This document shows positions 1,179 through 62,909 of a stretch of 64,000 bases of DNA, one piece after another; positions within the stretch are counted from its first letter, which is position 1; every line of letters starts with the position of its first letter. The notes beneath the pieces were generated by a model. It had not been told where the DNA came from. It saw only the letters and a program-made list of their open reading frames with translations, and did not search any database. The translations under genes were made by a program, and so were the position numbers. This DNA comes from Tridacna crocea (taxonomy: Eukaryota; Mollusca; Bivalvia; Cardiida; Cardiidae): NCBI GenBank assembly GCA_943736015.1, contig OX031057.1, positions 37,906,501 through 37,970,500 on the forward strand, written 5' to 3'.

Positions 1179-4100
1179 CTGTCAAAAACCCAAAAAAATG
1201 AGAAGAAATAATAACTTGATGCAATTCTCGTCATACAGCCCTTACTTAACCATTTACCAAACAATACCTTGTTTTAACCACAAAGAGGACAAAGACTTTT
1301 AAAAACATTGTGGAAAAAGGAGGAAATACTGGTGACCATTTTCTCTCCATGTTTTACATCCTATCAAAGGCAAATCCCATCACTTGAGGCATCACTTATT
1401 TCTTGTTAAGCAAATGCTTTCAATTATCATTGACAATTCATGATGGCAGTTTAACTCATTACCAAACAACAATTTTTCAGGTTTGTCCAACTCGAAAACA
1501 TTTGCAGACGACGAAATACAACTGATTGAAAATTTGATTTTTTTTTTTGTGAAGAGTAGAAAACTCTGTGGGAAGAGGAGAAATAGTGATTGTGTGGTAA
1601 TAGGTTAAACCTGTCTTAAGCCATGAGTTTATCATGACTTGACCTAGGCTTCACTTTTTAAAAACTGCCATCATGCAACCGTCCCTAATGGGTTTAATCT
1701 TTAACCCTTTACCCCATAAGGCATTTCTATGGTATCTCTAATCGACCCTAAATAACAACAAGGATGAAGCCGTTTCTTATGTGTATATGACACCTTTTGA
1801 CAGTATAGAAAACATTGTAACAAAAGGAGAAATTGCTCGTCACAAGCAATTTCACCTTTTGCCACAATGTTTTCCAAAGGCTCCTACAAGCAATGCATAG
1901 AAATGAGTATCTGTATGGTAAAGGGTTAACTCTTTACCATACAATCCTGAGTTTTAACAATCCCGAGCTAGAAGGCTTTTGGAAACATTGTGGGGGAAAA
2001 AAGAAAATTTAGGCAAATTAAGAGCTTTAAGTATTACATTTACTATTTACTAAAAAAAAAAATTCTTTCAACTATAGACAGACCTATATGCATGTATGTT
2101 TTTTATGTTTTCAGAAATAACAAATCACATGAAAGACAAAGATCTGCTGGTCACTACAAAAAAAATTTATTCTTTCAAATATAGACAGACCTATGTGCAT
2201 GTCCACAGAGGGAGGCACAGCCAGAGAGAGAGAGTCTGTCTCACTGAATCCAATAAACTTCCCACTTCTGAGGGATATAATTATACAGATGAAGGTTTAC
2301 CTCTTCCAGCTGTCTTTTCTGTGCAATTCTTTCCATGTAGCTCAATGGTGGACCAGGCTCATACAAAGGCAGGTCTCTTGCTGGCCCAGGCTCAAACTCG
2401 AAGTCCTCCGCTCCACCCCTATTTATCCTTTGGTGGGGTGCTGGAACTCCAGGTAGTTGTGAAAACCCACCCTTTCCATCTGCCTGATCCTCATTTGCAT
2501 TCTCTGGCTAAAACAAATTAGAGACATCATTCAATCTTGAGATGAAACGAGAAAAAACCTTTTCATTAGATCTTAATCTACAGTGTTCACAAAAGGTCAG
2601 GGAGTCACATTTAGTAGCCTAGGGGTTAACTGATTTTAGTAATTAATCTACTGCAATTTTAAACTTACATATTCCCCTATATATTTTTCTTTCATGTTAT
2701 CATTTTCAATACTTCTTCCATTACCAGTCATGTACACAGCGCAAGACTCAAACCTACCAAGTGTGAAGTCATCTCCTTGCTACAGAACTGAATTGATAAA
2801 TTTATTAACTGAGGTATCAAAATTTCAAGAAAATGCTTCAACCTCAGCTAACAGCAACATCCAAAGCTCCAACACTCTGTACAAATTAAACAAATTCACT
2901 GACTTAACTCATTACCAAACAACAACATTTTAGGCTAGTCTGAATCGAAAGCATTTGCAGACGACAAAATAAAAGTGACTAAAAATTTGGAATTTGTTTT
3001 GTGAAGGGTAGAAAACATTGCGGGAAAAGGAGAAAATGCTGGTTACCAGGGATTGTGTGGTAATGAGTTAAACATACTCAATGACTAATGCTTTACCAAA
3101 CAAGCCCCGGTTTGTACGACCCTGACATAGAAGCCTTTCGAAAAAATTGTGGGAAAAGGAGAAAATGCTGGTAACCAGCATTTTCTCCTTTTCCCACAAT
3201 GTTTTCTACCCTTTTAGAAACAAATTTCAATTTTTGAGTTGCGTTTATTTTGTTGTTTGCCAGTGCTCTCTATTTGGATCAGTCTAAAATATTGTTTTTT
3301 GGTAAAGGTTTGAAAGCTTCTCAGTTTTAATAAACCTATTAAAGAGGAGATATTTTCTCAGAAAATACAATTTGACAAAGAAAACAACATTACTTATAAA
3401 AACATTCTGGGAAAAGGAAAAAGATTTCTACCCCTCAAAACAGGCCTTTTAAATTTTTCAGTCACATTCATTTTGTAGTCCACATTGCGTCACTTTTGAT
3501 ATTGGGCATGTCTAAAATTTGGACCATTATCAATCCATAAAAAAAGTTGGCTGAACTTGAATTTCGAACCCACAACCTCATGATCTCAACTCCTGTATGT
3601 AACTGCCTGAACTACCAGGGTAAGTTAACTTCTTTGAATCATTCATCATCTGAATTTACATACCATATTTGCAGGGACTTCTGCTGCATTGATTTGTCCG
3701 ACTCTGACCAGATAGTTTATCATGTCTCTTGCACAGTTAGCTTGGGCATCTTTCTTGTTTGTGGAATTTCCTATTCCAACATAGTCAAAGCCTTCAATAC
3801 GGACCTGTGAAAAAAAAATAATGCAAGCTTGGTCAGAACTCTTCACAACACGATTCCGACTTTTAATGACCCTGAATAGCTGAAATAGAAGCCTTTTGAA
3901 AACACTGGAGGATAAAGAGAAAATTCTGATAACCAGCATTTTCTCCTTTTCCCACCATGTTTTCTACCATATCAGAGGTAAATTCAATCATGAGAAATAT
4001 TTAAAAAAATTTGTATGAAAATGCTTTAAATTTAACCATTTACCAAACAACAAATTTCTGGACTGGTCCAAATTGAAAGCATCTGTAGACGACAAAATAA

Positions 4101-4412
4101 ACATGGTTTAAAATATGAAATTTGTTTTGGGAAGGATAGAAAACATTGTGGGAAAAGGAGAAAATGTTGGTTTCTTCTTTTCCCACAATGTTCAACCAAT
4201 CAGTTACTTTCAAATACTTTCAAATCCAGAAAATTAGTGAGGATCACTCAAAAACTGTAATTAAGAATGAATGTTCAATACAGATCCAGGAGTCTACATA
4301 CCTCACATTTAAACCTTGGTCTATGTTTAGCACCTGTCTGACTAAACTCATAGTTTGGTGTCACCTTCCTTTTTCCACACCATGCATACAAAAACTGTTT
4401 TACATCAGTCAT
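1039..4412 (-). CDS. DHX9: DHX9 / RNA helicase A orthologue, 5' part (five coding exons; gene continues past base 1)
   Basis: Coding exons, in order, are 4412-4302, 3804-3664, 2779-2669, 2507-2301 and 1178-1039, giving 236 residues plus a split Arg codon. All introns are GT-AG and the phases agree. The first two exons form dsRBD1: start [16 protein letters not shown], then a segment with [18 protein letters not shown], both nearly the same as vertebrate DHX9. The last exon opens dsRBD2 with [13 protein letters not shown] and KIVGPDHN. The family are nuclear DExH helicases that unwind dsRNA, R-loops and RNA:DNA hybrids and act in transcription and splicing. The helicase core, OB-fold and RGG tail are outside the window. 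The linker between the dsRBDs is diverged and its exon 2779-2669 is the least certain. Every intron holds TPM copies. Confidence 0.95.
1246..1454 (-). mobile_element. TPM MITE, decayed
   Basis: TTAA at both ends, with the GCAAATGCTTTCAAT block at the right, but the palindrome is partly lost. In the intron between DHX9 exons 4 and 5. Confidence 0.75.
1451..1608 (+). mobile_element. TPM MITE lacking one palindrome arm
   Basis: Shares TTAA 1451-1454 with the neighbour. The left half is normal to GGGAAGAGGAGAAA, then jumps to the right-end block (GTGATTGTGTGGTAAT), so the right arm and most of the tail are deleted. Confidence 0.8.
1701..1929 (+). mobile_element. TPM-B MITE, full length
   Basis: 229 bp TTAA to TTAA. 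Ends in CCCTTTACCCCATAAGGC. Core reads AAATTGCTCGTCACAAGC in place of the TPM-A core. It has the same length and arm layout as TPM-A but different flank sequence. In the DHX9 intron between exons 4 and 5. Confidence 0.9.
1926..2015 (-). mobile_element. TPM MITE fragment sharing TTAA with TPM-B
   Basis: Starts at the right TTAA of 1701-1929 and keeps the tail block and the first part of the left arm (GGAAACATTGTGGG), then is lost. Confidence 0.65.
2301..2507 (-). CDS. DHX9: DHX9 coding exon 4 (linker)
   Basis: 69 codons, phase 0-0, with a TTGTTTTAG acceptor and a GAG|GTAAAC donor. It is Pro/Gly-rich ([38 protein letters not shown]) and ends in a charged helix [11 protein letters not shown]. 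Its place before the dsRBD2 exon matches the human segment with GPTWDRGANLKDYYSRKEEQ, though similarity is weak. Confidence 0.88.
2669..2779 (-). CDS. DHX9: DHX9 probable coding exon 3 (linker)
   Basis: An open stretch of 37 codons between a TTCAGTTCTGTAG acceptor and a TAT|GTAAGT donor, phase 0 at both ends, exactly as exons 2 and 4 require. The encoded acidic/polar sequence (begins [10 protein letters not shown], ends EKYIGEY) has no recognisable domain. It falls where DHX9 has a variable linker. It could be an alternative exon or a chance open stretch; an RNA read would decide. Confidence 0.6.
2904..3071 (+). mobile_element. TPM MITE lacking the right palindrome arm
   Basis: TTAA at both ends and a good left half and left arm to GCTGGTTACCAG, then directly GGATTGTGTGGTAATG. 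About 62 bases, the right arm and inner tail, are missing. In the DHX9 intron between exons 2 and 3. Confidence 0.85.
3085..3312 (-). mobile_element. TPM MITE, near full length
   Basis: Inverted copy with a perfect inner palindrome; terminal TTAA changed to CTAA and TTTG. Same intron as 2904-3071 and 13 bases from it. Confidence 0.85.
3664..3804 (-). CDS. DHX9: DHX9 coding exon 2 (rest of dsRBD1)
   Basis: 47 codons, phase 0 at both ends, with a TTTTTTCACAG acceptor and an ATG|GTATGT donor. The run [19 protein letters not shown] includes the KKDAQ and Ala-rich helix 2 residues that contact the dsRNA phosphates in this domain. The end, [10 protein letters not shown], matches the human segment ending in EEVPAFGV. 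Confidence 0.96.
3838..4035 (-). mobile_element. TPM MITE, decayed
   Basis: Recognised by GAAGCCTTTTGAAAAC, half a palindrome and the TTTTCTACC block. It shares TTAA 4032-4035 with the next copy. In the intron between DHX9 exons 1 and 2. Confidence 0.7.
4032..4196 (+). mobile_element. TPM MITE, short copy
   Basis: Good left half (GACGACAAAATAAA block). The palindrome is shortened at its centre (GTTGGTTTCTTCTTTTCC) and the right end is lost. Confidence 0.75.
4302..4412 (-). CDS. DHX9: DHX9 coding exon 1
   Basis: 37 codons from the ATG at 4412-4410, ending phase 0 at a GTATG donor. It is the first half of dsRBD1 ([16 protein letters not shown]; human DHX9 has [15 protein letters not shown] after Met1). 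A CAG acceptor lies two bases before the ATG (exon edge 4414), so the transcript should have at least one untranslated exon upstream. Confidence 0.96.
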
Positions 4413-4975
4413 ATCTGTAATGTTTGCAAAATAAGGTAAACCCCATTACTGCACAACCCCTAGTTTAAACAACACAGAAGAAAAAACGTTTGAAAACATT
4501 TTCACAAAAGGAGAATAGTGCTTTGAACAAGTATTTTCTTCTAATCTCACATTATTTCCTACTATGGAAAAGACACCTGTCATAAGTAGAGCCACCTTTG
4601 GTACGTCATCTGCGAATGCTAGATCAATTTAAAGTTCTAAATTATGTTGTTTGGAAGAAAACGAATTCAGGGTTGCATGTGAAGACTATTTCAAGATGTC
4701 AAAACTTTCTAAGTTTTCAGTTACATTTCTTTCAATTTCATGTTTCAGTTACTATCTGTTTGCCTTGGATTCTTATGTCCTTAAACTAGTCTCAAAAATG
4801 AGCCCTTTATGGTGCTTCTTTTCCTTTTGGACAGTAATTTCGTACCATGGCACCTAAGTTCAGTGTGATTTTTCTGATTGTAAAGCTATGTACAAGGCTG
4901 TACTGACTTTTCCATTTTGTTGGTTTAATGTGTTTTGCAGCAGAATATAATTTTTGGTGATAATTATACATGTAC

Positions 4976-5159: not shown

Positions 5160-5515
5160 TAGAGATAACCAAGGATTATGATCATTTTTTAAAGCACTTT
5201 CAAAAGTGGTTTGTAACATGATATTAAAAAAAAAATAAAGAAATTTGATTTTCTTGGTAGCCATTTCTGTCAACTACAGAGAAAGTAAACATCTCGGGTA
5301 ACAGATGAAATAAAGATTTTTTTTGTTAAGTTAAAGGTTTACTGTCTTTTACAGACAATAGGTCACTTCACTGTATAGGCCGCACCCCTCCATTTTAACC
5401 ATTTAGGAAGTAAAAACTATTGTACAGGCCACTCCAACTATTAGGCCGCAGCCGATATGCTGTCAATATCGTCATCCTTTAGGTACATGTCCATGTTTGA
5501 TATGTTTATACGGAT

Positions 5516-5690
5516 ATGTGATAGAAGCCTTTTGAAAACATAGTGGGAAAAGGAGAAAATGCTGGTAACCAGCATTTTCTCCTTTTTCCCACAATGTTTC
5601 TTTCCCTTCCCAAAACAAATTTTAATTCTTAGTCACATGCTTTTAAATGTTTAATTTGGACCAGTCTGTCGTATAGTAAAGACTTAAGAC
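5516..5690 (-). mobile_element. TPM MITE, ends lost
   Basis: Intact palindrome (about 5536-5600) and part of the right half; both TTAA ends are gone. Confidence 0.75.
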
Positions 5691-7039: not shown

Positions 7040-9003
7040 GTTAACTCTCTACAACACAATCCCGAATCTAAGACTTGAAGGAGAGAGATCCTGAAGACCT
7101 TGCGGGAAAAGGAGAAAATTCTGGTAACCAGCGTTTTTATTTTCCTTCTTTTTTTTTACCCCCTTCCCGCCATTTTCCACAATGTTTTCGACCCTGTCGA
7201 TGGCTATTGTTTCATTTGTTTCACTTTCGAATGTTTTTTTTTTTTTGCAGAAGTTTTCATTTTAGAAGAGTATTGTATTTGTCTCACTTTCGAATGTTTT
7301 TTTTCAGAAGTTTTAAATTTAGAGGAGTGTAGAATTTGTCGTTTGGTAGTTAAATCAGTATGTATCTACTGCCATCAAAAAATTGCTGGGCAGTGTCAAA
7401 TAAACATATCTGCAAAGACTCGTTGTTGTACGGATTATGGTTGTACATGTCTTAGAAAAAAGGTCTCTTTCGCTCGTTTCTAGGCTTTGCCTATTTTCAT
7501 ATCAATATCGTGCGACTTTTAGAAGTACCTGTATTTCATGAACACTTTTACTCTCTCATCACTCTCGTTATGTACACAGAATTACGTCAATGGCAAGTTG
7601 TGTGTGGCACGAACCAAAACCGGCTAAAATTAGGAGTAATTTTATGGTCAAAGGGAGAAAACTCGTTTTTACAGACGCCACTATTTTAATCAGAGTTACT
7701 TCCCTTTATATTTGTAGACAGTATAAAACCGAAGACGAATAAACATCATTGCAGCTTGTGAAGACGATCTGTATCGAAAAAAAGAAATGTTCGTAGAGCT
7801 GTCATTATTTCTGGCAAAGTTTAAGACAGGATTACAGAAGCTGCTACTTCTAAAAATATCATGACAGAAGACAAAAGAAAGAAAAACCAATTGCAGACGT
7901 GGTTGCTATTGTGTAAACAGGTGGTGGTCTCCCTTATTTTTGTAAACAATGCGATTCCCGCCGAAATTTAAACTTGGAAGTAACAATTCGGTTTTCAGAG
8001 TAAAAGCTCACGAAGAATCTAAATGTAATTTTTACAATTAGATTTATGAAATGATGAATGTATACGAGAAATAAGCTTTATTATATTACAAATTTACAGT
8101 ATTAAAATTAACTTATGAACAAACGACATGTATTCGTTCAATTAGATTTTCGAGGTTATTAATGAATATCGGATATGGGCTGAACTGTCAAATTCCAATC
8201 ATTTCTTTGATCTTTGACCGTAAGGAACAGCCCTGGACAGATCTATAGTGAAAGCATACAGGTCTGAATCTCCCAAGCTAATAAAAGGAGATGGAAAGCT
8301 ATGCTTTTTCTCGATTATGTTAATGTTGATTCCAGTTTAGATTCCCTCCCCACACACACGCACTTTTCTTTAGTGGAAGGGGATGTAAGAGGGGAGGTCA
8401 CTCTCTGTTAATTTGAACATTTTAATCCTCTAGACATAAATTGATTTAGTTAAAATAACGCAACAACATCCTGCCTTTGGCGAAAAGTAACAGCGGGCAA
8501 ACTATCAGCACAGACTTAACTCGGGTGTACTTGTAAATGAACGTGCAGGCTGAACTTGAATTAAGACGGTCCATTCAGAACATTTTTCAAAAGAAAACTC
8601 CTTTGAAATAGAAAAGATTGGGTTTCAAAATTTTACTGATTTAGCAAAATAAGTGTTAACAGAGGACCTGGGTTTTTCGATAGACCGTATGGGTATAAAT
8701 TAACCTAGACTGGTTACCGCCCCTGATACACTACGTGTATAGTGGCCAGTTTAAAATTAACCCTGCACCGGTTGATAAAATTTCGGTGTGACTGTAATAG
8801 TTGAAAAAAAGACGCTTCCCGGAGGAGGGGGGAATAAGGGAGAGTACTCTATATAACTAATAGATACTAGATTGTTCGAGTTTTCTCCCTTCGACCATAA
8901 AATCACAATGGAATGTGATGGTGACGTATCTCCGAGGGACAGACCCGAGACCGATTAACAACGATATTTAGGAGCTTTCTCTAGTTTTTTTCTCTACTGT
9001 CTA
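7040..9003. other. Intergenic, no gene seen
   Basis: Contains a decayed TPM left part near 7070-7190 (GGGAAAAGGAGAAAATTCTGG then TTTTCCACAATG) and a T-rich stretch with a repeated TTTCGAATGTTTTTT (7224 and 7290). A 127-codon open frame at 7100-7483 runs through this repeat DNA and I take it as chance. Confidence 0.5.
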
Positions 9004-11369: not shown

Positions 11370-11596
11370 TAAATCATTACCACACAATCCCTACTTTTGA
11401 CGACCTGAGAAAGAAGCCTTTAGAAAACATTGTGGGAAAAGGAGAAAATGCTGGTAACCAGCATTTTCTCCTTTTCCCACAATGTTTTCTATCTTTCACA
11501 AAACAAATTTCAAATTTTGGGTCACTTTTATTTTGTCGTCTGCAAATGCTTTTGATTTGGACAGGCCTAAAATTTTATCGTTTGGTAATGAGTTAA
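11370..11596 (-). mobile_element. TPM MITE, near full length
   Basis: Perfect core palindrome. The right TTAA (11593-11596) is directly followed by a different foldback (11597-11772). Confidence 0.9.
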
Positions 11597-11772
11597 GACA
11601 TTTGCGTAAAGTTTTGTCTCGGATCAGCCTGCGCAGTCCACGCATGCTAATCGGAAACAACACTTTCTGTTTTTTCATAATTTTCTGTTATGTGCAAGTC
11701 TACTATACCACAAAATCTAATGTTGTCATAAAGTGCAATCTCGGATTAGCCTGCCCCTATTCATGTGTTGCA
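11597..11772. mobile_element. GGATTAGCCTGCGCAG foldback, truncated
   Basis: Same family as 34557-34823 and 48688-48952: ATTTGCGTAAAGT then CTCGGATCAGCCTGCGCAG, and an inner AAGTCTACTATACCACAAAA. The right arm is cut short. Confidence 0.7.
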
Positions 11773-12850: not shown

Positions 12851-12992
12851 TACTTCACTGAGATAATGCTGAAAATGACAATAAACACGATAAAATCAAT
12901 TATGTCAATGGGCAAATAGTATACTGACTATAAAACCAAGATTCTGAAATGATAAAATAATCATCATCTTAGCTACATTTTGTACTTAAAAC

Positions 12993-13213
12993 TTAACCAA
13001 ACAACAAAATTTCAAGCCTGTCCAAATTGAATGCATTTGAAGACGACAAGATAAACATGGCTCCAAAAAATTTAAAAGTATTTTCAGAAGGGAATAAAAC
13101 ATTGTGGGAAAAGGAGATGCTGGTAACCAGCATTTTCTCCTTTTTCCACGACGTTTTCGAAATCTTCCTTTATCCAAGGTCATTCATACATAGTGTTGTA
13201 TAATAATTTAATA
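12993..13213 (+). mobile_element. TPM MITE, diverged
   Basis: Left half and hairpin are present; five bases are missing from the left arm (GGAGATGCTGG), leaving an asymmetric palindrome. The right end is AT-rich and lost. Confidence 0.8.
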
Positions 13214-13816: not shown

Positions 13817-13819
13817 CAT

Positions 13820-14015
13820 TTAACCTACAATTTCACGCTTTCATGGCTCCAACGATAAAGGCTTTTGAAAACAGTGTGGAAAAAGGAAAAAAGGTCGGTC
13901 ACCAGTTTTCACTCCTTTTCTCACAATGCTTTCTTCAGTTTCAGAGACTATTTTCACCATTTGAAACACGCTAATTTGTTGTCTGGAAATGCTTTCTATT
14001 TGAACTAATCTTACA
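13820..14015 (-). mobile_element. TPM MITE, decayed, in the UCHL5 3' region
   Basis: AGGCTTTTGAAAACAGTGTGG and later GTTGTCTGGAAATGCTTTC. The palindrome has many mismatches. Confidence 0.6.
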
Positions 14016-14280: not shown

Positions 14281-17200
14281 CTGTTGAAGATACAATACAA
14301 AATATGGGTATTTCTACCATATCAATTCTCATAGAATAATCATTTTCACCTTATCTATAGCCTGTGGAGACTGCACCAACAGGATAAGTCATCATTAGCT
14401 AGCAGCCTGATCTTGGTTGACTTTTTGTAAGGTGTTCATCTTTATTTCGATTATATTGCTCCATGGCATAAGAGAACACATGCAGAAATAAAGAATCTGA
14501 ACATCAGCCAGGGATGATCACTGATGGCACAGACTGCCAAACTGACAGATGATCTTATCTTGTTGATCAAGATTTTTAAGTATACTTTAACGTGGCATTT
14601 TCAACTTTATTTCAGACTTATTGCAATAGCCAATGAACCTATCCAGATTTTCCTGGACTTTTTTTAAGTAGTTACCAGACATTATTTTAGACTTGTCCAA
14701 ATCAAAAGCATTTGAAGACGACAGAATAAAAGTGATGGAAATTTTAAAAAATGTTTTGTGAAGGGTAGAAAACATTGTGGGAAAAGTAGAAAATGCTGGT
14801 TACCAGCATTTTCTCCTTTTCCCACAATGTTTTCAAAAGGCTTTTTTTCCGGAAGCCTCAAAAGTAGGGATTGTGTGGTAATGGGTTAATCTGTACTCTG
14901 CACAATATTTTTCTCAACCCACTGGCAGCTTTCTCACATAATCATCGTTGAACACAATGATTGGGTCCTGTGTGGCTCAGTGGTAAAGTGCAGGACTCCT
15001 GATCTGGAGGTCCCGGGTTCGAGCCTCACTAGCTTCACTAGGTTTTTTCACAGGAGTGTCCTTGGGCATGAAACATGAATATGTGAACTGTCTCCGTGAT
15101 TTGACTGAAGTAACGATGAAAGCGGCGTAAAACACCATTCAAACAAACAAACATGAAACAATGATCCTGGTGCAACAGGAATGAAACCCTGTCACAACGA
15201 CTATCATCAATCCTAAGAAAGAAATTAGTAAGCTGGGAATTAAAACCTGCAACCAGTTTCAAGTCCTGTACCCTCCTGCCATGGCTACGGGATCAGCAGT
15301 GGTGAAGGTTCTTGTTAATGCCCTACAAACCTATGGGCATAACAGATAGAAAGTAACACTGTAAGCATGTAGTTAAGTAATTATAATGACACAATTTTCA
15401 ATAATCATGCTCTGTCAAGTATTATTTACTTTACGCCCATTCTTACCTTCTCTACTAAGGGAACAAGTTGTTTCTGTTCAGCTAATATCTTCAGCAACTC
15501 CATAATAAAAGGGAGGTAATTGTGTTTTCTTCTAATATTTTCTACCTGTCATCAACAGAATAAAAGAGTATATGGGTTATTTCTACTCTAAAAGCTTTGA
15601 AAACCTGTATATGGTAATTTGCTTTTCCCCAGAGATAAAATAAACTGTCACACCTTTTTTTCTTTGCTGATGACAATTATGGGATTTGCTTTTTGAAAGG
15701 GGAGAAAATGATTAAATGCCATTTACTAGTTTTCTTCCATTCTCACAATAATTTCCAGTCTTTTTCACCAGGTCATTCAAATGTACTATTACTTTGTAAA
15801 GGGTTTTTTTATCTTAGAAAGATCAATTATACCACATGCCACATTTTATGCTCCAAATCATGAAATATCTCCCAAAAGACACAAATCTCTTTAACCCTTT
15901 ACCAAACAGTCCCTGGTTTTTACGACCCTGAGATAGAAGCCTTTTGAAAGCATTGTGGAAAAGGGAGAAAATACTGGTAACCAGCATTTTCTCTTTTTTT
16001 TAAAATGTATTCTACTCTGCTGGAAAGAAATTTCGATGTTTGAGTTATCTTTATTTTGTCGTCTGCAAGTGCATTAAATTTGGACCAGTGTAAAATTTTG
16101 TCGTTGAGTAAAGGGTTAAGGCAATATCTCCAAGTTTTTCTCTGAACATTTCTCTTTCTTACTTAGTCAGTTTTAAATAAATATTATGATAAAAAAAAGA
16201 CATGTCTAAGTTTGGTAAATTATAGGAATCTGTTTCTATAGCTTCCTTCGACTATTTATCACTCAATCTGAGTTTAACAACATGATAGAAGAAGGTTTTT
16301 GAACACACTTTGGGAAATTGGTAAATGCAATGTCTGCTCTTTCAAAGATAAAATCTCACAATTTGAGTCATTTTTATCATAAATGCAAGTTCTTTGGATT
16401 CAGACAAGTCCATAATCAAATTTTCACATTTCAAACTATCATTATTTGTGTACTATTCTACTTTAGACTTGGACAAGTTTACCTTGTACTTCTTCATTTT
16501 CTTATCTTCATCAGCTATTAACATGTTTAACTGGCTTATCTGTGATTTTAAGGTGTCTGTTTCCATACCTCCACCCTGCAAAATTAAATGACATCTTTCA
16601 ACATTTTCTTGGTCATATTACAGTAAAACAGTGGACCAATTCATGTTTGTCCCAGGTTTCCTCAGTATTTTAGGCTTGGACTAAGCAGAAAATCTCAGTG
16701 AAATAAAAAAAAACCTACTACCTGATTATAATTGTGTAAACATTGTGAGAATTGTCCGATAGATTAGAAATGACTTTTGCAATTGGACTTTTTTTCTATT
16801 TGTCAATTTTCTGCCAGTCCAAAGAGCAGTATTCCTCATTGCTAACCAACATTTTCTCCTTTTCCCACAAAGTTTTCTGTCCCAGAGCGAATTTCAATTT
16901 ATGAGCCCCTTCTTTAATGTTCTCTGAAAAAGTTTCAGATATGGACGTCTAAAATTTGTTATTTGATAAAGAATTATCTAGCAAATGAAATCATTTTTAG
17001 ATATTATTGAGGACATTGGAAAAAGAGCCACGGCTTGTATCTAGCTTTGAAATCGTTTCTTATCAATCATGCTTTAAAAGCTTCTGTTAAAATTGCTACT
17101 AAAGCATTGCACCTCACCGATTGTGGGGTATTTAGATAAAACATTAAAGTTTACTTACGTCCAGTTGAGAACACAAAAGTTGAACTCTCTTCTCATAACA

Positions 17201-20200
17201 CATTTTCCTATCAGATACTATTGCCATAAGGTTAAAATGTATTTCATCTGCACTATACCTGGAAAAGAGAAAAGAATGTGGACAAATTGCCACGCAATGG
17301 AATAAGTCATACTGTGAAAAGTGGATTTAATGTGTTTGTAGGTACAGGCTGACTTGGATTGAAACTTTTTGAATTGATGTAATATCTGCATGTCGAAGGG
17401 CAAATCTATTCATAAATTCTTTTGGCTGTAGGACAACATGGAGATTGATGATTATGCAATGAATTGCTTGGTAGTATGCATCACTTAGTTAATCAATAGT
17501 GTAAGGCTTAACCCTTTCCCAAACGACAAACTTTTGGACTAGACTAAGTTGAAAGCATTTGCAGACAACAATTCAACTCTTGCTGAAAAGATGATTTCTG
17601 TCTATGATAGGGTAGAAAACATTGTTGGAAAAGGAGAAAATGCTGGTTATCAGCATTTTCTCCTTTTCCCACAATGTTTTCAAAAGGCTACTATTCCAGA
17701 CCCGTAAAAACCAGGGATTGTTTGGGAAAGGGTTAAATGTTAATGCAAAAGTGGACATATTGACTGAATCTGATTGGTCAATTCAATTTTCAGCAGTTCT
17801 CTGATGTTTCAAAAGGTGACTGCATAGTTTATTTAGACTTTCTGGCAGGTAATACTGTAGGGCACCTTGTCCTATACATTGGGTTGTAGAAGGTAAACTT
17901 TGTTGAAATACATGTGCCTATGGGCAAGGATCAGAAACATACCACATGTGTATCATATACAGTCTGGATACTTGTTTTCTACCACAGTCACAACAAAAAG
18001 TCAAGGGAAATGAACATAAGAACTCACTTTTGCATTCTTTTCTCTAATATTGGTTTCACATAGTCTAACCACTCTGTGCCTTCAGCTATTGCACCTGAAA
18101 ATGTCAAATTAAACTTTATGTGATAACAAACGCTAGAATGTCAAAAGTTTTTTAAAGGTGGCCCTTCAGAATTTGGGACAAAAATTTTACAAAAATACAG
18201 AAAAATCATCCTAATACTCCCAAAGCCTTATAATTTCCATTCATAAAATCCCAGAAGTCGAAAACCATCCGCCAACATGAGAAATTAGAGATTTACTACA
18301 GCCCAGGTTGACACTTGAGGGAAACATCGTCTATTTTTACATCAGCAACTTGCTCATTTACATACTGGAAATATAGAGACAAAGTTTCAAACATAGCGTC
18401 TGAAGTTCTGGACATACAGGAAGATAATTACATGTTTGTTATGTTAAGGAATTTAAGAGTCATTAGTCACATGTCCGTCACTTAACATTCCCAAAATGCT
18501 TTTTTGATTTTTGGCGGGAGATCTAAAAATAGCTTAAGAGGCTACGTAGCCTTTTAAGGGAATACCACCAAAAAATTTTTTTTTGTAATTTTATGATTTC
18601 TTAATTATTGATGACTTGTATTAATTTTTCATATTAATTTCAGTGATATATACATTTTTTAATTTGTGCAATGTGAAAAATCTAAATATCCACCATTAAT
18701 GTTCAGAAATGTCTAACCTAAAATCTTTCATTACTGAAAAAAATGGAGCTGTCACTGAATGTGACTTAACTCTTTACCACACGAGAAAATTTTAGACTGG
18801 TCGAAATTGAAAGCATTTGCAGACGACAAAATAAAGGTGACTGAAAAATTGAAAGTTGTTCTGGGAAGGGTAGAAAACACTGTGGGAAAAGGAGAAAATG
18901 CTGGTTACCAGCATTTTCTCCTTTTCCCACAGTGTTTTCAAAAGGCTTCTCTCTCAGGGGCATCATAAGTAGGGATTGTATGGTAATGGGTTAAAATACC
19001 TCTGCCAGCGCTTTGACAGAAACAGGCAATTCAACGAAAAACTTTTCATTTTGCGGTGATATAATAAATTGTATTTTTTCAAAGGCTCCAAACACAGTTT
19101 CGGTGCAAGATCTAGACAGAGTCCAGTCATAATACAAAATAACCAGCATTTTATCCTTTTTCAAACCTAATCAAAACAAATTTCAATGTGAGTCAAATTG
19201 TCCTTTTCCGATCTCTTTTAGAAAGTTATTTTTTTTCCCCGCAGGGTCAGCATAAAGGGGTTGTTTGGAAAAGAGTACCAACCTAGATCTATTGGTCCAT
19301 CTTTAAGGCCATCTAATTCATACAATCTCCCATCGATGGGTAGATATCCGACAAAATGGTAAACATCATCATCCTTCTTGGCCATTTTTTCATCAAATTC
19401 AAACATCTGCTGTCTGAAATAAACAGTTACAAAAAAATTTTAATACAAGAAAATCACCCGTATAAAAATATCCAGCACTTCCTTCTATTCCCATGTTTTC
19501 TGCCTTTTCATTGGCTTATCCCATTATTTGAGCTACATAAAGGTGACAATCCATTACTGGAAAGTTGATGCAAAAGTCTTTTTACCTAGTTTTAACATTT
19601 TTTTTCCTACGAGTAACTAACACATGCACTTTCCAAACAATAACAGATTGTCGTCTTCACAATTATTTTCATACTTATATTATGGTATGATTTAAATAAA
19701 AATTTAAGTGTGTTTTAAATCTGGTTTTGTTTATTTTTTTGGCTGTAATTGAGCTTTTTAACTTTTCACTAAACAACAAAAAAGCTTTTGTCAATACCTT
19801 AGAGGAGAAATCAGGCCTGTTTTAGCTCCAGATTTATCTAAACTGCTAATCATAGCTGAGAGAATTGGACGAGGTAGGGTTTTATTGAGTAAACATTGTT
19901 TTTTTACTTTGAAATTCAAAGTAATGGTTGTCGCGTAGGAAAGTGGTTCGGTTCTGTACCCAGGATGCCCAAATTAGATAGATGAGTATTTATAGAATGC
20001 CATCTGGCTAGAGATAATGATTCACTGACGATTACAAAAAAATTTGAGACTTAGAAAAGGACTACTTTCTGAAAATCTCAACCAGTACTCATATCATATT
20101 GTGGGTATTTTCCAAAGGTTGATCTAGACTCATCACAGGATTAAAACCTGCAATTCCGATGTAACAGGCAAACACTGCACCCATATACCAATGACTCTCA

Positions 20201-23200
20201 CAACAAAATCTTATTTTTCAAGTAACCGACTAATTCTGCCTCACATACAGTTAGAATAACATCTCACATGGGTGCAAACAGTCTGCTGCAATTGCCTCTT
20301 CTGTAAAATGTTTAGTCAGATAATGGAGTTATTGACCCTTTACCTTACAATCCGGAGTATAATTCTTTACCACACGAGAAAATTTTAGACTGGTCCTAAT
20401 TGAAAGCATTTGCAGACGACAAAATAAAGGTGACTTGAAAAAACTGAAATTTGTACTGGGAAGGGTAGAAAACACTGTGGGAAAAGGAGAAAATGCTGGT
20501 TACCAGCATTTTCTCCTTATCCCACAGTGTTTTCAAAAGGCTTCTTTCTCAGGGGCGTCAAAAGCAGGGATTGTGTGGTAATGGGTTAATTAAATGACTG
20601 TGAGAAAAGAAGACTTGAAAACCTTGTTGGAAAAGGAGAAAATGTCGGTAACAAGCATTTTCTCCTTCTCCCACAATGTTTGCTATCCTATCAAAGACAG
20701 AAATCATCATCTGAGCTACATTTAAGGTAGTAGACCCCTAATGCCTCTAGTGCTAAATTGCATAAAGTTTTCTTGATAGTTGATAAATACAGATTTATAC
20801 TGGTATAATACTTTTGAACATTTTTAACAGACTAGAAATTTCTATATGCCTATACTGAAATTATTTGTAGATACTTTTGTTTGTTTTCAGAAAAGGGAGG
20901 TAATTACTATCTCTCTTTGTAATGAAAATAACTATAATGGTTCTAGATCTATAAATGATTATTCTAAGAAAAGACAAAAAGGGAAAAGTGGCTTGGTTAA
21001 AGTAGTACAATAACACTCTTTTTTAATCACAGCGAATTTTGTAGGATAATGTTATTGTGGAAATAGCTGTTTTCTATTAGGGGTCTACTACGTTAATTTG
21101 ACAGGTGCAAATGCTTTCAATTTGTTTAGGTCCAAAATGGTACTGTTTGGTAAAGTGACAGCCAATATCTTGAGTATTACCAGAGATGCCAGAAAATGCC
21201 AGTTTTTACAATGACTCCAATATCTATGGCTGAGGAAATACCTTTTAACTCTTTCCCAAATGGAAAATTTTGGACCAGACCAAATTCATAGCATTTTGCA
21301 GATGGCAAATTAACATTTGCTAAAAAGACGATTTTTCTATATGATAGGGTAGAAAACATTGTGGGAAAAGGAGAAAACGCTGGTTACCAGCATTTTCTCC
21401 TTTTCCCACAATGATTTCAAAAGGCTTCTATTCCTGACCTGTAAAAACCAGGGATTTTTTGGGAAAGGGTTAATGTATCCCTGTGATGAATGATTCCAAT
21501 CAAGACATAAAAATAATTATGGATATAACATAGCCACTTTTATTTTTTTAACAACCCACGTAATCTTGAGGCAGATTGGTCATTGAACATACAGAAAACT
21601 AACCAATAACGAAAAGTGGACTGCGCAGGCTGACCTGGGTTGATACTTTTTGCAGATGCATTAAGACCCCTTTTCATAGGGCATGGCTCCTGTATATTTG
21701 TCGGAGATCAATTTAGCTAGAATTGTTTACCTTGAAAAACTGTTGTGTACTTGCTTGATGATGTCGGAATTGCTAAGACTTAATCCCCTCAACTGCAAGA
21801 CATGAAATACAATATGTATGTAGTGACCACACAAGTAGGCTATGCTGATCCTGAATTGTTCACCTGAGCCTGTTTTACTTTGAGAACATAATGGAAAGTA
21901 GTTATTCTTTTTCTCAGAAAGGAACTACTGGCTTACTTTTTACCTGGCTAAATTCTTAATGATCTCATGAAAACAAACATTCAGATCAAGTTTGATGAGC
22001 ATCAGTGAAAAAGTGGCTTGGCAGGTATACATAAGTTTTTTTTCTAAAAAGAGTTGTCCTAGTGACCAACTTTTTGAACCAAATCATTCTGTGTCCAATC
22101 TAGTTCTAGATGTATTCAAGCCAAACATTCTGACCAACTTTCGTAGGAATTGCACTTAAAATGTAGCTTCTACAGTGTACACAAGGTTTTCAAAGATTTG
22201 ACCTGGTGACCTACTTTTTGATATGACATAACCCATTTTCAAACTTGCCAAGGATATCATTGGGCAAACAATCATGCAAAATGCTTTTTTAGTGAAGCTG
22301 CAGAAAGGGACAACAAAACTGTGCAGAGCTCCAGATAGCAGGAGTGATTTTGATTTCAAATTGAAAATATTATTTATTCTCAACTAAACCCTATGCTATG
22401 GTTACTCATTGAGACGATTTAAATGAGTACCCACAAAATAGGGTATGGAAGAGAAATAATGGATATAGAATACCATCACTCCCTCTAATCTGGAACTCTG
22501 CTGTGTCAAAAATGTTTTCAGGGATACATGCCCTTCTTGTAATGGGTTCCTCTTTTGATATTTCATGACTATCTAGTGTTTAAACAACTTTGGTAAGCAC
22601 AGAATTTTATAACTAGCTGGCATTTCAAGTAAACAACTTTGGTAAGGACAGAGATATAAGAAAACGTGAAAAGTTTTTGCACAACAATGAAGTTGATAAT
22701 GATGCTTGCAATGACAGAGCCATTGCTATGTAAACATTTTCTTCAAAAACTGAAGAGGTTAAAAATGGACTTACAGACGGGTCAAAATTCTGTGAGAATT
22801 CTTTGAAAGATGTGAGGGTCTCTCCGAGTTTCAGATCTGGATGTTTGCAGTTGAGCAGAACACTAAGTATAGCTTGTGTAGCACAGGCATTATTTATAAC
22901 CTACATATAGAAAGAAAGAATCAACAAAATCAATTTTCTTCACAATAACAACAAAAAATGCAAGACCACACAAACTTAAGCTCATAATAAACCTTTATCA
23001 CACAATCCTGAGGCACCCTGAAAAGTAGGCTTTTTGACAACATTTTGGGAAAAGGCAGGGGATTTTCTTCCTTTCCTGCGGCGCCGAATTTCGGCCCCAT
23101 TCCCAATTGCAAAAAAAGTAGTTTTTTCCCAATTCCATTAAATAAAATTCCCAATTAGACGCTAGAAAAAGACGATAGTCTGATGTATCAGTTAGGGTTT

Positions 23201-26200
23201 TACCCCACGCACAAATTTGCTGGCACTGACCACACTTTTAGCAGGAAATTGACATATGTTGTAGGTATGAAAATATTTGGAGGTGAATTAACTATATACT
23301 GCATCCGTATATTTGTCAACCAATTCATGCATTGACTCAATTATCTGGCTGTAAACCGTTCTTGGTTTACACATACAAAATATAGACGACGGTTAACTTC
23401 TCAGTAACTGCCATGCATGTATTGCAGTGAAGTGAGTTTCGTAACTAAGGGAAACATAAAGAACCCAGCTCCTAAACTGCAATCCTGAATCAAAAACAGG
23501 TTATGAAAAATACCCGGCAAAATCGAGACCACAAGGTTTTTTTTCCCCTTTCAAATTTCAATTGGTTTTCTGGAGCGGTTGGAATGAAGCAAGTTTCAAG
23601 TGTAAAATTTCCTCTATCCAATTAATTTTTAACATTTCTTTTCAATACTGTACTAGGCCTACCACAGAAAATGCTGATTTTTCAATCTTTCTATATATGT
23701 CAAAGCACACAAAAAAATCGTTTTCAAAGATTATTGTCATGGGAAAAAAAACATGAAAACCCATGACAAAACAATTGTCAAACAAAACCTCAGCCGATCA
23801 GAGGCTCTTCTATTGGTCTTATCAAGCCTTGATATAATGACCTCTAGCAGCTGACTTGCATACACACAATCTAGAAAATAAAATGGGAAATAATTCCTCT
23901 CTTCATTCACCAGAAAAATGTCTTTATTTAAATATCCTACCTAACTGGGTCAGTGGGGTGGGGTGGGGTGGCTTACAGCTTAGACACTTGAACTAGTATG
24001 AAAGACAAAAGAGAGCAAATCCATCCAAAAAGAAAGAAGTTTGGGAAAAAGAAGCACTACTGATTCAGTAGTACATTAAATGCCTTAATAAGTTCATTGT
24101 AAGGTTAATAATAAATTGTGCTCCAAACCTTTATATTTTTTGACAATATTATTTTCCTAATTTTGACATTTTGTTCTTTTCCCACAATGTTTTCTGCTCT
24201 GTTGGGGACAAGCTTCAATTTTTGAGTTACAACTATTATGTCGTCTGCATGTGCTTTCAATTTCAACCAGTGTAAAATTTTGTTGTGTGGGAAAGGCTTA
24301 AGGACTGCACAGCTTTTTATCCAATATTCAAGTCAATAGCTTGTTATGTAAATAATTCTAATATGAACCATGCCATGGCATGGGGGGGGGGGGGGGGGAG
24401 GGGTTTAATGCAACTCCCTGATGCATTGTACAAAGCAAGTCATTGCAGAATTTTATATCCATAAAATCCATTTTGCTTAATTAACCCTTTACCCCATAAG
24501 GTATTTCTGTGGTATCTCTAATTGACACTAAATATCGGCAAGGATGAAGCCATTTCTTTTATGTATATGACATCTTTTGATAGCATAAAAAACATTATGA
24601 CAAAAGGTGAAATTGCTCGTCACGAGCAATTTCACCTTTAGCCACAATGTTTTCCAAAGGCTCCTACAAGCAATGTGTAGAAATGAGTATCTATGGAGTA
24701 AAGGGTTAAGAATGGACCAAATCCCAAAGTAGACCTTTGACACACAAAAAATTAACCAATGAAAAAAAGCTTCAATCCAGGTCAGCCTGTATGGACTGCA
24801 AAGCTCCTCCATCAGACAAATCATGTCATTCGAGTAAAATTAAACCCTTTCCCAAACAATCCCTGGTTTTTACGGGTCTAGAATAGTAGCCTTTTGAAAA
24901 CATTGTGGGAAAAGGAGAAAATGCTGGTAACCAGCATTTTCTCCTTTTCCCAAAATGTTTACTACCCTATCATAGACAGAAATCATCTTTTCAGCAAGAG
25001 TTGAATTGTCGTCTGCAAATGCTTTCAATTTGGTCTAGTCCAAAAGTTTGTCGTTTGGGAAAGGGTTAAGTTGTCACCTATAGATGTTTTCAATATGAAG
25101 AGGATTGCAATTTTGTCCTGTGGTAAAGAGTTAAGTATTTCAAGCTTGTCCAAATTGAACGCATTTGTAGACGACAAAATAAATGGGACTGAAAATTTGA
25201 AATTTGTTTAGTGAAGGGTAGTGAAGTGGGAAAAGGAGAAAATGCTGGAAATGCTGGTTACCAGCATTTTCTCCTTTTCCCACAATGTTTTCTCAAGGCT
25301 TCTTTCTCAGGGTCGTCAAAAGTAGGGATTGTGTGGTAATGGGTTAAATGATTAAATGTTCTTACCGATATGAAGGAAATCATTGTGGAATATAAAGAAA
25401 TTGCTATTGACATGAACATACATCTCCTTTACCCTAAATCATGTTTCTAAAAGCATTCTTTTTCATGATCATTAACCCATTACCACACAATCCCTACTTT
25501 TGACGCTCCTGAGAAAGAAGCCTTTTGAAAACACTGTGGGAAAAGGAGAAAATGCTGGTAACCAGCATTTTCTCCTTTTCCCACAGTGTTTTCTACCCTT
25601 CCCAGAACAAATTTCAATTTTTCAGACACCTTTATTTTGTTGTCTGCAAATGCTTTCAATTTGGACAAGTCTATTATTTTCTTGTGTGGGAAAGGGTTAA
25701 AAAAAAAAACACATGAGTGTTTACTAATAGTTAGAGTTAACAATAAACACTGATATTATTTATTAGACAGGAGGCACTGGTTACCTGTTTTGCAAAGAAT
25801 ATTTTCTCTAATCTGCTGTCTTGAACTACTGATCCATCAGGTTCTGTGTCTGGCACCCATTTGAACAGAAAAATTAAACCATGAACTGGTCTGAAATTAG
25901 ACAATAACAAAAAAACTGAAAAAACAATTCATAATCAGGCAATCAATCAATATATCTGGCCTTCCATAATTAACTAGAGCTGTCACTGAATGTGACTTAA
26001 CTCATTACCAAACAACAAAATTTTAGCTTTGTCCAAATTGAAAGCATTTGCAGACGACAAAATAAAAGTGACTGAAAATTTGAAATTTGTTTTGTGAAGG
26101 GTAGAAAACATTGTGGGAAAAGGAGGAAATGCTGGTTACCAGCATTTTCTCCTTTTCCCACAGTGTTTTTCAAAGGCTTCCTCATCAGGGGCATCAAAAG

Positions 26201-41865: not shown

Positions 41866-41896
41866 AATACTTAGAGTAGGTCACATGAGAAATGTG

Positions 41897-42125
41897 TTAA
41901 CTCATTACCAAACAACAATATTTTAGGCTTGTCTAAATAGAAAGCATTTGCAGACGACAAAATAAAAGTGACTGAAAATTTGAAATTTGTTTTGTGAAGG
42001 CTAGAAAACATTGTGGGAAAAGGAGAAAATGCTGGTCACCAGCATTTTCTCCTTTTCCCACAATGTTTTCTAAAGGCTTCTTTGTCAGGGGCGTCAAAAG
42101 TAGGGATTGTGTAGTAATGGGTTAA
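41897..42125 (+). mobile_element. TPM MITE, full length, perfect palindrome
   Basis: 229 bp TTAA to TTAA; palindrome 42005-42069 without mismatch (centre GGTCACC). A good reference copy. Confidence 0.96.
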
Positions 42126-42225: not shown

Positions 42226-42438
42226 CTTAACACTTCATCAAACCATCTCGTGTTTTAAACGATCATGAGAAAGGAAACGATTGAAAACATCATTGGAAAC
42301 GGAGGAAATTCTTCAAGTATTTTTCATCTTTACACACGGTATTTTCTATCCTTCCAAAAACTATTTTTTCGACCGAATTTCGTTTTGTAGTTTGAAAAAT
42401 GCTTTCAGTATGGACTCGCTGATTATTTCTTCTGGTTA
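42226..42438 (-). mobile_element. TPM MITE, decayed
   Basis: CTTAACACTTCATCAAACC end, CGATTGAAAACATCATTGG arm, GTTTTGTAGTTTGAAAAATGC block. Confidence 0.6.
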
Positions 42439-42751
42439 AGAGTAAACAAGAAGGTTTGTATATAATTGTTACTGCAACAGTTGGTGAAAAATTACAAGAA
42501 CGACCTTTGAAGAGAAGAATCTTTAACATGATTAAATTATGAAGGGGTAAAACTGATTTTTTAAAGCTGTCAATAGCCTAGTTTTTAATGTTTAGCAAGT
42601 TGTTGAGAGTTAAAATTGGATATTAGCCTGAGTCTGGCAGGGCGGTGTTCAAGTCATCTCCGTGACGCATTATACAAGCAAGATATAAACTAATAAAGGA
42701 TCCTTAAAATCCATTTTCTGTAAAAGTCGACTGAAGAACGAGGTTGATTGT

Positions 42752-44208: not shown

Positions 44209-44633
44209 TGGGTCCGTGTTCACCAGCTAGTTGTAGTGGCTTTGTTAGCCTAAGTTCAGATTTAGAAAGTAACACAACTTGTAATTGGCTAAATCATTCG
44301 GTCTAGTCAATCATAAGTTGTGCTACTGTCAAATTTAGACATTCATGAACATAAGGCTAAGAATAAAGCTAACGGTGCTTTAACCCATTACCACACAATC
44401 CCTACTTTTGACGCCCCCGAGAAAGAAGCCTTTTGAAAACACTGTGGGAAAAGGAGAAAATGCTGGTAACCAGCATTTTCTCCTTTTCCCACAGTGTTTT
44501 CTATCCTTCCCAGAACAAATTTCAATTTTTCAGTCACCTTTATTTTGTCATCTGCAATTGCCTTCAATTTGGACCAGTCTAAAATTTTCTCGTGTGGTAA
44601 TGAGTTAAAGAATGGTCGGTGAATAGGGACCCA
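44209..44633. mobile_element. CCAAT-centred palindromic MITE split by TPM
   Basis: Left part 44209-44378 with CAACTTGTAATTGGCTAAAT and GTCAATCATAAGTTGTG; right end after TPM is AAGAATGGTCGGTGAATAGG at 44607-44626. Confidence 0.85.
44379..44608 (-). mobile_element. TPM MITE (CACTGT subfamily), full length, nested
   Basis: 230 bp; perfect palindrome with CACTGT/ACAGTG; TTAA at 44379-44382 and 44605-44608 is the split target. Confidence 0.96.
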
Positions 44634-46069: not shown

Positions 46070-46304
46070 TTTATCTCTTTACCATTTGAACGACAACATT
46101 TTAGACTTGTCCAAATTAAAAGCATTTACAGACGGCAAAAAATAAAGTGACTCAAAAATTGGAACTTGACTATAGATGAGTAGAAAACATTGTAGGAAAA
46201 GGAGAAAATGCTGGTAACCAGCATTTTCTCCTTTTCCTGCAGTGTTTTCAGAAGGCGTCTTCCTCTGGGTCGTAAAAACCAGGGATTGTTTGGTAAAGGG
46301 TTAT
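46070..46304 (+). mobile_element. TPM MITE, near full length
   Basis: The palindrome has paired changes at the base: AACATTGTAGG on the left, CCTGCAGTGTT on the right, not fully matching. Ends degraded. Confidence 0.85.
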
Positions 46305-52061: not shown

Positions 52062-52442
52062 CTACAGCATTTGCAGACGCCAAATAAAATGTTTCTCGTA
52101 TAACGAACTATTTCTTTGAAAAGGTAGAAAACATTGTGGGGACAGGAAAAATACTCTCTGTTCCACATGGTTTTCAGGTCCTCTTCCTCTTAGTTGTTGT
52201 AACATGCGATGGTTGGGCATCACGCAATCCCAAATCTTAACGACCCTGAGACAGAATCCTTTTGAAAACATTGTGGGAAAAGGAGAAAATGCTGGTAACC
52301 AGCATTTTCTCCTTTTCCCACAATGTTTTCTACCCTCCTAAAATCAAAAATCAATTTTTGATTCACATTTATTTTGTCGTCTGCAAATGCTTTCGATTTG
52401 GGGTGGTCCAAAATTTTATTTTGTCGTTTGGTAAAGAGTTAA
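52062..52442 (-). mobile_element. Two TPM copies, one decayed, one near complete
   Basis: 52062-52212 keeps GCATTTGCAGACGCC and AACATTGTGGGGACAGG. 52213-52442 has a perfect palindrome (52266-52330) and ends in TTAA. Confidence 0.85.
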
Positions 52443-52897
52443 TCCTTTATCACACAATTCAGAGTTTTAACAAACCTGATGGGAAAAAAAAGCTTATATT
52501 TAAAAAAAAAAGTATTTTACCTGTCCAAAAACAAATTTCAACTCTTGAGTCACTATTATGTGCTTTGAGTTTTCAGGGGTCTAAAAGATTTTATCATTTG
52601 GTTGAATTTTAAGCAAAATTTCCTTGATTAATTACTTTCTTAGACAATGATAAGGCATGACAGTTTTGGTCTCAAGGGGCAATTTCTGCTTTAAAAACAA
52701 TGTTTTCACTTATGGCAGTATTGTCATATTGCTAAAAAGCTGTGTTAAACAGCATTGAATTACTGTCTAGGTATGTTTTACTTTCATGATGTTTTCTTTG
52801 AAAAAAAAAGGTTGAACTTATCAATTTGCTTACAAGCCCTAATTTATTTTTTAATGAAACCTTACGGATTTATATCTTTGCATCGTGAAAAATCGTG

Positions 52898-53110: not shown

Positions 53111-53371
53111 TGTATAACCGAGAACAAGCCTGACTTAAACACCATTCTGTTCTGTTTTCCTAAGATTAATTAACATGATCAAGAAGTGGGTACACTCTAA
53201 ATGAGCTAAGAACAATAAAAACAACGGAAAACAACATTTTATTGCCCCAAATGTGCGAAATCGTTTTATCTTTATGGCACAACCACAGTTCGCCTGATTA
53301 CGAAATCATAATTTTGGAATAAAGTTCCAAGTTCACACTTTGTTTGAAGGAAATGTGTGTTTAATGGTAGT

Positions 53372-53600
53372 TTAACCCTTTACCCCATAAGGCATTCCTA
53401 TGGTATCTCTAACTGACCCGAAATAATAGCAAGGATGAAGCCGTTTCTTAAGTGTATATGACACCTTTTAATAGTGTAGAAAACATTGTGACAAAAGGTG
53501 AAATTGCTCGTCACGAGCAATTTCACCTTTTGTCACAATGTTTTCCAAAGGCTCCTACAAGCAGGGCGTCGAAATGAGTATCTAAGGCGTAAAGGGTTAA
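53372..53600 (+). mobile_element. TPM-B MITE, full length, perfect palindrome
   Basis: 229 bp TTAA to TTAA; arms AAAACATTGTGACAAAAGG and so on with no mismatch over 32 bases each side of a single C. The reference for TPM-B. Confidence 0.96.
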
Positions 53601-56085: not shown

Positions 56086-56139
56086 AAAAAGATGCCTTTC
56101 ACCATCGTACAAAACGATTCCGTGTGTTCATTAGCGTTC

Positions 56140-62560: not shown

Positions 62561-62680
62561 AATAATAGAAATGGTGGGTTTTACGAACGGCTTAACATTT
62601 TCATTTCACATATGTAACAGGTTTAGGTTTCCATAAATGACACCTCAACCGATTGTGTTCTACTGTAACCTACATGTATC

Positions 62681-62909
62681 TCAACCCTTTACCAAACGAC
62701 AAAATTCAAGACTGGTCCGTATTGAAAGCGCTTGCAGACGACTAAATAAACATAACTCAAACAATGATATTTACTTCCAGCAGGGTAAAAAACATTGTGG
62801 GAAAAGGAGAAAATGCTGGTTACCAGCATTTTCTCCTTTTCCCACAATGTTTTCAAAAGGCTTCTTCCTCAGGGTCGTAAAAACCAGGGATTGTTTGGTA
62901 AAGGGTCGA
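62681..62909 (+). mobile_element. TPM MITE, full length, perfect palindrome
   Basis: 229 bp. End sites are TCAA and TCGA, not TTAA, so either mutated or inserted at a variant target. Confidence 0.92.

Follow-up and report, generated by a model that had tools for sequence, protein, structure and literature searches.

Does a palindrome whose two arms differ between repeat subfamilies by mirrored changes owe this symmetry to the hairpin that it could form? The question is raised by a stretch of 64,000 nucleotides of Tridacna crocea (OX031057.1, positions 37,906,501 to 37,970,500), called the window here. It lies on contig 2 of a 1.05-Gb genome in 31 contigs and carries many copies of a short repeat, TPM, with a palindromic core. 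A sequence-only reading had proposed that the TPM hairpin is either under selection or renewed when one of its arms is copied onto its partner. In our best explanation, which we hold to be probable by a modest degree, TPM is a miniature inverted-repeat transposable element (MITE) with the arms as a conserved cis-acting part, and a few founder double changes were spread by amplification.

TPM is an about 230-bp non-autonomous MITE of the piggyBac type. It spans from TTAA-CYC(T/A)TTACC to GGTAA(A/T)GGG-TTAA with the core palindrome in the middle and, being short and non-coding, lies below the length of a transposase-coding element. TTAA stands at both ends in 106 of the 177 full-length copies (5′ end in 139, 3′ end in 126), and beyond it no further target duplication is found outside the element in these 177. 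The CCC start expected of the terminal inverted repeats is present, the first six bases being most often CCCTTT (34), CTCTTT (28), CTCATT (13) and CCCATT (8), and the commonest last six are AAAGGG (36) and AATGGG (21; n = 106).

TTAA is duplicated at the insertion and single at the empty site. Six empty-site alignments were picked from 276 junction-spanning matches: two have a clean single TTAA (copies 18764 and 25995), three cross the junction with an altered TTAA, and one is uninformative. The genome has 118 matches to the piggyBac transposase family PF13843. The window has zero Rfam matches at gathering score, and among the papers listed by literature searches none describes the TPM family in its title or abstract opening.

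The DNA sampled, including the window, amounts to 338 kb or about 1/3000 of the genome. Four window copies served as the seed of the TPM profile, which was then rebuilt on 188 full-length sample matches to a model 232–233 columns long. Matches overlapping a better one by more than 15 bases, identical rows and cores short of 62 of the 67 letters were left out of the counts. In the window the profile marks 69 separate TPM stretches, 37 of them with a complete core: 28 of subfamily A, four of B, four of C and one diverged copy filed as E.

The TPM centre is a near-perfect palindrome of 65–67 bp. The A core at 42005-42069 and the B core at 53480-53544, described earlier as 32-1-32 palindromes, both pair at 32 of 32 positions. 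There are four subfamilies: A, C (C7), E (C7, T25, C30) and B (C13, T20, T25, C30). Of the 12 copies filed under E, those at window 25359 and L031:8995 are diverged and probably misassigned. The group with C at position 7, also proposed earlier, is real, with 32, 31, 32 and 32 of 32 pairs in the cores at 18874, 20469, 25528 and 44436. An intermediate copy, L019:3023-2794, combines T7, T25 and C30 with a B-like right end.

Across 208 distinct complete cores, the left and right arms have the same consensus at all 33 positions, and this holds for A, C, E and B alike. The subfamilies differ at pairs 7, 13, 20, 25 and 30, and five of five differences are mirrored. The mirrored A-versus-B differences that had been claimed hold at pairs 13, 20, 25 and 30, but position 12 is not a paired subfamily change. 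When the right arms were permuted among copies, 37.6 ± 6.4 mirrored pairs were expected and 136 were observed. The coupling is above this shuffled control and also above a slid-partner control, as a covarying hairpin would have it; the latter pairs each arm position with a shifted partner at six slides and is biased low by the shifted partners differing in base.

All five pairs are strongly coupled among 244 complete cores. Pair 7 is T/T in 173, C/C in 21, T/C in nine and C/T in seven; pair 20 is A/A in 194, T/T in 18, A/T in seven and T/A in four; pair 25 is A/A in 195, T/T in 31, T/A in six and A/T in two. Genome-wide core counts are of exact matches and exclude decayed copies. Among them, for the two pair-7 states counted, 8866 cores are C7/C7 and 1424 are C7/T7.

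When did these changes arise? On a tree of 183 copies built from the flanks only, where noise touches the short internal branches, the coupled changes reduce to about six founder events. Branches to eight or more tips carry five mirrored pair changes and none at each of the six slid partners; an earlier mapping with other tie-breaking placed six on branches with nine or more tips. On the terminal branches one-sided pair changes number 592, mirrored ones 23 and those in both arms without mirroring 20. Thus, as the tip changes are mostly one-sided, the resident copies are not routinely re-matched.

About six founder-level events might also be expected of pure hitch-hiking, in which the two changes happened to coincide in few founders, drift spread them and the palindrome has no function, and the near-independence of the arms at pair 12 described below agrees with it. 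However, five of five coincident complementary changes are very unlikely by chance, and the arms diverge less than the flanks. We regard this account as very improbable.

Within A there are 771 one-sided, 46 mirrored and 43 both-arm unmirrored pair changes, with permutation expectations of 24 for the mirrored and 28 for the both-arm unmirrored. Because the unmirrored ones likewise exceed expectation, the mirrored test was redone by age class. Copies with 1–3, 4–6, 7–10 and 11 or more changes have 2, 7, 13 and 24 mirrored against 0.7, 2.6, 9.5 and 24.7 expected (p 0.145, 0.030, 0.145 and 0.600). These counts bear out the earlier remark that old copies often lose pairing.

In the other subfamilies the mirrored excess is not significant (C, 0 versus 0; E, 3 versus 1.4, p 0.12; B, 4 versus 2.2, p 0.115). 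Among 123 A copies, none of the one-sided variant classes that were tested clusters by flank. The unpaired centre base is not T in 38 of 152 oriented A copies and is A in 18 of these. It varies like a flank site, the per-site figures being 22% for flanks and 7% for arms.

Could template switching at replication go on copying arm onto arm in all copies, as in quasi-palindrome correction? The mechanism is known to make and mend hairpins (PMC8794818), and young copies do have a slight mirrored excess. Yet it predicts symmetric residents, at odds with the dominance of one-sided changes within A, and copies with seven or more changes have no excess (37 mirrored versus 34.2 expected). Nor are the centre changes mainly to the complement, with A in 18 of 38; for comparison, T>A makes up 70 of the 170 private T changes in the arms. 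Such ongoing switching seems highly unlikely, and frequent arm copying in all copies is rejected by the one-sided changes. Loop inversion as a template-switch footprint gives no clear signal either, the complement appearing in only 18 of 38 centre changes.

At pair 12 the genome-wide count of exact B cores gives G/G in 2978, A/G in 2541, G/A in 538 and A/A in 505. The arms are near-independent, with an odds ratio of 1.10 (95% 0.96–1.26, p 0.16), so that position 12 is rejected as a paired subfamily change. The pair is unpaired in 3079 of 6562 cores (46.9%), A/G alone making up 39%, and A is found in 46.4% of left but 15.9% of right arms. The unpaired form is amplified almost as well as the paired form. 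A hypermutable site is argued against because both arms share the local sequence and their rates differ threefold.

The sample agrees. Its 19 B copies are A/G in nine, G/G in eight and A/A in two, and the B consensus at position 12 is, after 50 kb more sequence, A on the left and G on the right. Of the four window B copies only 53480 is mirrored A/A, with A/G at 1809 and 24589 and G/G at 26970. The B copies with A12 on the left do not cluster by flanks (p 0.74). A hairpin covarying throughout would have no propagated unpaired difference between its arms; here one such one-arm difference is widely propagated, which counts against the sequence-only reading. Selection for strict pairing at every position is rejected for pair 12.

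The arms are conserved relative to the flanks. The arm/flank divergence ratio was taken from 73 greedy nearest pairs, CpG columns excluded, with the choice by flank similarity biasing it upward. It is 0.74, 0.68, 0.60 and 0.49 in the flank bins of 0–5, 5–10, 10–15 and 15–20%, then 0.49, 0.42 and 0.61 in those of 20–25, 25–30 and 30–40%. The arms are below the flanks in all seven bins and all four subfamilies, whereas equal divergence would have spoken against the earlier proposal. They decay somewhat less than the flanks in close pairs and far less in deep ones, which fits a part that the source lineages tend to keep.

Distances from the consensus, left/right, are 0.006/0.014 for arms and 0.051/0.026 for flanks in C, 0.038/0.049 and 0.145/0.109 in E, and 0.069/0.070 and 0.220/0.222 in A. 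The ends and both arms stay recognisable across subfamilies while the sequence between them diverges. Hence the arms would most likely be a cis-acting part of the amplification.

How much of this calls for the hairpin itself, as DNA or RNA, to be selected, so that an altered arm is later answered by a compensating change in its partner and the two still pair? The mirroring of all five subfamily differences and the low arm divergence are as it expects, two of the coupled changes resolve on the tree as successive one-arm steps, and the one-sided pair-12 variants would keep a G-T/U wobble on one strand, so that the hairpin need not be badly broken. Against it stand the independent arms at pair 12, with 47% of exact B cores not Watson-Crick paired, and four of five coupled pairs that are swaps with no wobble path. 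Moreover, the half-way state of pair 7 is not seen among near relatives of the C copies, and the sample has few copies with only one arm changed at pairs 13, 20 and 25. We consider such selection rather unlikely.

The C copies agree with a founder event at pair 7. A close-knit group of 11 is C/C throughout and has one A/C relative, and T/C and C/T are absent among its nearest relatives. Pairs 13, 20, 25 and 30 are complement swaps (G:C/C:G or A:T/T:A) that keep the pair strength. Swaps are 22% of the private changes, and four or more of five being swaps has p ~0.009, post hoc. Four of the five pairs being swaps without passage through a G-T wobble mildly favours copying.

In the favoured MITE explanation, the arms would act like the ends as a cis-acting part, either as an inverted pair of protein-binding sites or as a DNA hairpin or cruciform. 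The mirrored changes at 7, 13, 20, 25 and 30 would be a handful of founder double changes that were amplified, rather than continuous covariation, and copies would decay one arm at a time after insertion. A founder could arise when one arm mutates and template switching at the hairpin carries the change over to its partner, or through two successive hits under a constraint common to both arms. Template switching enters this explanation as a possible rare founder event. A dimeric binding site changing in both halves is an equally simple alternative to it.

That alternative can be put more generally: the arms may be bound, as an inverted pair of sites, by a dimeric protein (a transposase or a host factor), and the half-sites would track its preference rather than pairing. 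The arms and ends recognisable across subfamilies suit this, as does the centre base being freer to vary than an arm site. A likeness is seen between the A-type 3′ end CCTTTACCACACAAT and the arm CCTTTTCC-CACAAT (p 0.041), but it does not survive correction. A few other end/arm comparisons have p 0.025–0.041 and, by single-base shuffles, none of the 16 made survives. The resemblance is weak and is absent for B (p 0.48 or more), and 33 bp is a long arm for a single half-site. We take the dimeric site to be a possibility of limited weight. The arms as copies of the terminal repeats are likewise a weak candidate, the end/arm p-values being lost after correction.

A narrower version is that the core palindrome is an amplification module, a burst needing a founder with two well-matched arms that were both changed at once by arm-to-arm copying during mobilisation. 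This is conceivable but doubtful. If true, the many near-perfect palindromes of the genome would be a natural assay of transposition-linked hairpin template switching. From the earlier proposal of a selected or arm-copied hairpin we thus retain the coupling of the five pairs and the arms being below the flanks; as an ongoing process it is not shown, in view of the one-sided private changes and pair 12. Frequent arm copying and strict pairing selection are not supported.

Several observations weigh against the founder explanation of the MITE. An autonomous element with the TPM ends was not found at the six piggyBac loci examined (L034–L039), out of the 118 matches. L036 has matching ends TTAACCCATTTATGCC 2.9 kb apart, and L039 has the motif TTAACCCTTTATATACGAG and a TPM copy at 56-281 that adjoins a TTAACCC motif at 326; an end pair was not found in the other four. 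Core-like matches in L035 appear to be old decayed TPM copies rather than a stretch of the transposase gene.

On the tree, the branches to eight or more tips hold 15 one-sided changes too, and in the earlier mapping two of the coupled changes, that of E at pair 7 and the basal B change at pair 30, each resolve into two successive one-arm steps. Copies with 1–6 arm changes have nine mirrored against 3.3 expected, and the tips hold 23 mirrored against 6–8 at the slid partners, a control biased low. Some mirrored change may therefore arise in single copies. Either rare arm copying or small subfamilies of which a single copy was sampled could underlie the young-copy excess. With only about 1/3000 of the genome sampled, a small subfamily passes for a single copy, and at this depth one of a few thousand copies resembles a tip.

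Also on the opposing side, the unpaired A/G source at pair 12 was amplified, and therefore pairing is not strictly needed. The B arms, at 0.056/0.029, are just under their flanks at 0.071/0.061, and the C 5′ end, at 0.102, is more divergent than the C flanks. The ends and arms are hence not uniform as conserved modules. The arm/flank ratio climbs back in the most divergent bin.

TPM is very abundant. Exact matches to the 32-base A arm number 105,589 in forward and 104,865 in reverse orientation, in total 210,454 in the 1.05 Gb, and its reversed pattern as a control occurs 0 times. An abundance sample of 23 ten-kb stretches at round coordinates on 13 contigs (230,000 bases) has 47,435 bases or 20.6% covered by TPM (bootstrap 14.5–27.0%). 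Its 167 complete cores scale to about 760,000 per genome, and its 45 exact arms compare with 46 predicted from the genome count.

Table 1. TPM copies in the window, in order of position
Subfamily	Position	Strand	Remark
TPM-A	213..444	-	
TPM-A	437..667	+	abuts the 213..444 copy
TPM-A	787..1026	+	palindrome centre longer
TPM-B	1700..1929	+	core 1809-1873, A/G at pair 12
TPM-A	3087..3313	-	
TPM-A	3837..4034	-	diverged
TPM-A	4442..4656	-	diverged
TPM-A	5504..5689	-	match ends at model position 207
TPM-A	7041..7273	-	diverged
TPM-A	11371..11598	-	core 11424-11488, 32/32 pairs
TPM-A	12985..13203	+	one arm shortened
TPM-A	13819..14013	-	diverged
TPM-A	14665..14889	+	
TPM-A	15891..16121	-	
TPM-A	17506..17736	+	
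TPM-C	18764..18994	+	C7/C7; core 18874-18938; paralogous empty site, one TTAA, 46428-46506
TPM-C	20360..20589	+	core 20469-20533
TPM-A	20593..20777	-	
TPM-A	21244..21473	+	
TPM-B	24481..24709	+	core 24589-24653, A/G at pair 12
TPM-A	24843..25070	-	
TPM-A	25137..25347	+	core partly duplicated
TPM-C	25472..25701	-	core 25528-25592
TPM-A	25995..26225	+	T7/C7 unpaired; empty-site match L029:8022-8110
TPM-B	26861..27090	+	core 26970-27034, G/G at pair 12
TPM-A	27090..27204	-	fragment including core
TPM-A	31545..31766	+	diverged
TPM-A	36927..37156	-	
TPM-A	37149..37379	+	abuts the 36927..37156 copy
TPM-A	41895..42125	+	full length; core palindrome 42005-42069
TPM-A	42227..42447	-	diverged
TPM-C	44380..44609	-	core 44436-44500
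TPM-A	46071..46303	+	
TPM-A	52221..52444	-	core 52265-52329, 32/32 pairs
TPM-B	53371..53600	+	core 53480-53544, A/A at pair 12
TPM-A	62680..62906	+	core 62789-62853, 32/32 pairs

Some arrangements of the copies can be added. Two oppositely oriented TPM pairs meet at a shared TTAA (213-667 and 36927-37379), and the C-type copy at 18764-18994 and the A-type copy at 25995-26225 are both inserted in the same TTAA of another dispersed repeat. The palindrome is shortened or partly duplicated at 2902-3049, 4032-4192 and 25137-25347, possibly by palindrome-related deletions.

Other repeat families in the window have 65-bp palindromes as well, at 34113-34177, 35558-35622, 47051-47115, 48727-48791 and 48849-48913, with 25–31 of 32 pairs. 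They have five to 27 BLAST matches each in the 338-kb sample. Three of these palindromic repeats were tried, and matches that were both gapless and nearly full length exceeded two for 48849 alone (16 rows including itself). Away from the repeats, an exon-like frame at 22625-22900 (-) matches Peptidase_C12 (E 4.9e-11) and another at 3646-3963 (-) matches the double-stranded RNA binding motif (E 1.2e-6).

Among known systems, TPM resembles the piggyBac superfamily and its MITEs in the single TTAA at empty sites, the CCC...GGG ends, the shortness and the transposase genes in the same genome. It differs from them in the large conserved central palindrome and in taking up about a fifth of the sampled sequence, and the six loci examined gave no autonomous partner that shares its ends. 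Palindromic or foldback MITEs such as MADE1 are short transposons able to fold on themselves, as TPM is, and Galileo of Drosophila is foldback-like in form. Unlike in the foldback MITEs, the TPM palindrome is internal, apart from the terminal repeats, and is kept while the sequence between diverges. Like TPM, Galileo (PMC4168063) is a DNA transposon that falls into sequence subfamilies and has inverted repeats of a dynamic kind, but it belongs to the P superfamily, with target duplications of 7–8 bp and variable long ends instead of a fixed internal palindrome.

Hairpins maintained by template switching (Monttinen and Loytynoja 2022, PMC8794818) are alike in principle, since hairpin template switching can produce mirrored double changes in a single event. 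In contrast, the TPM residents decay mostly one-sidedly and the coupled changes sit in transposon founders.

TPM, a single short MITE family, makes up about a fifth of the sampled sequence, and a great many of its copies have a palindrome that is perfect or nearly so. This makes it a large natural data set. It bears on how frequent arm-to-arm copying is and on whether internal hairpins aid MITE amplification. It also calls for caution in covariation claims on repeats, as a few amplified founders can yield strong apparent covariation. Pair 12 is the example: a single copy suggested pairing, and the genome-wide count of the four haplotypes showed near-independence.

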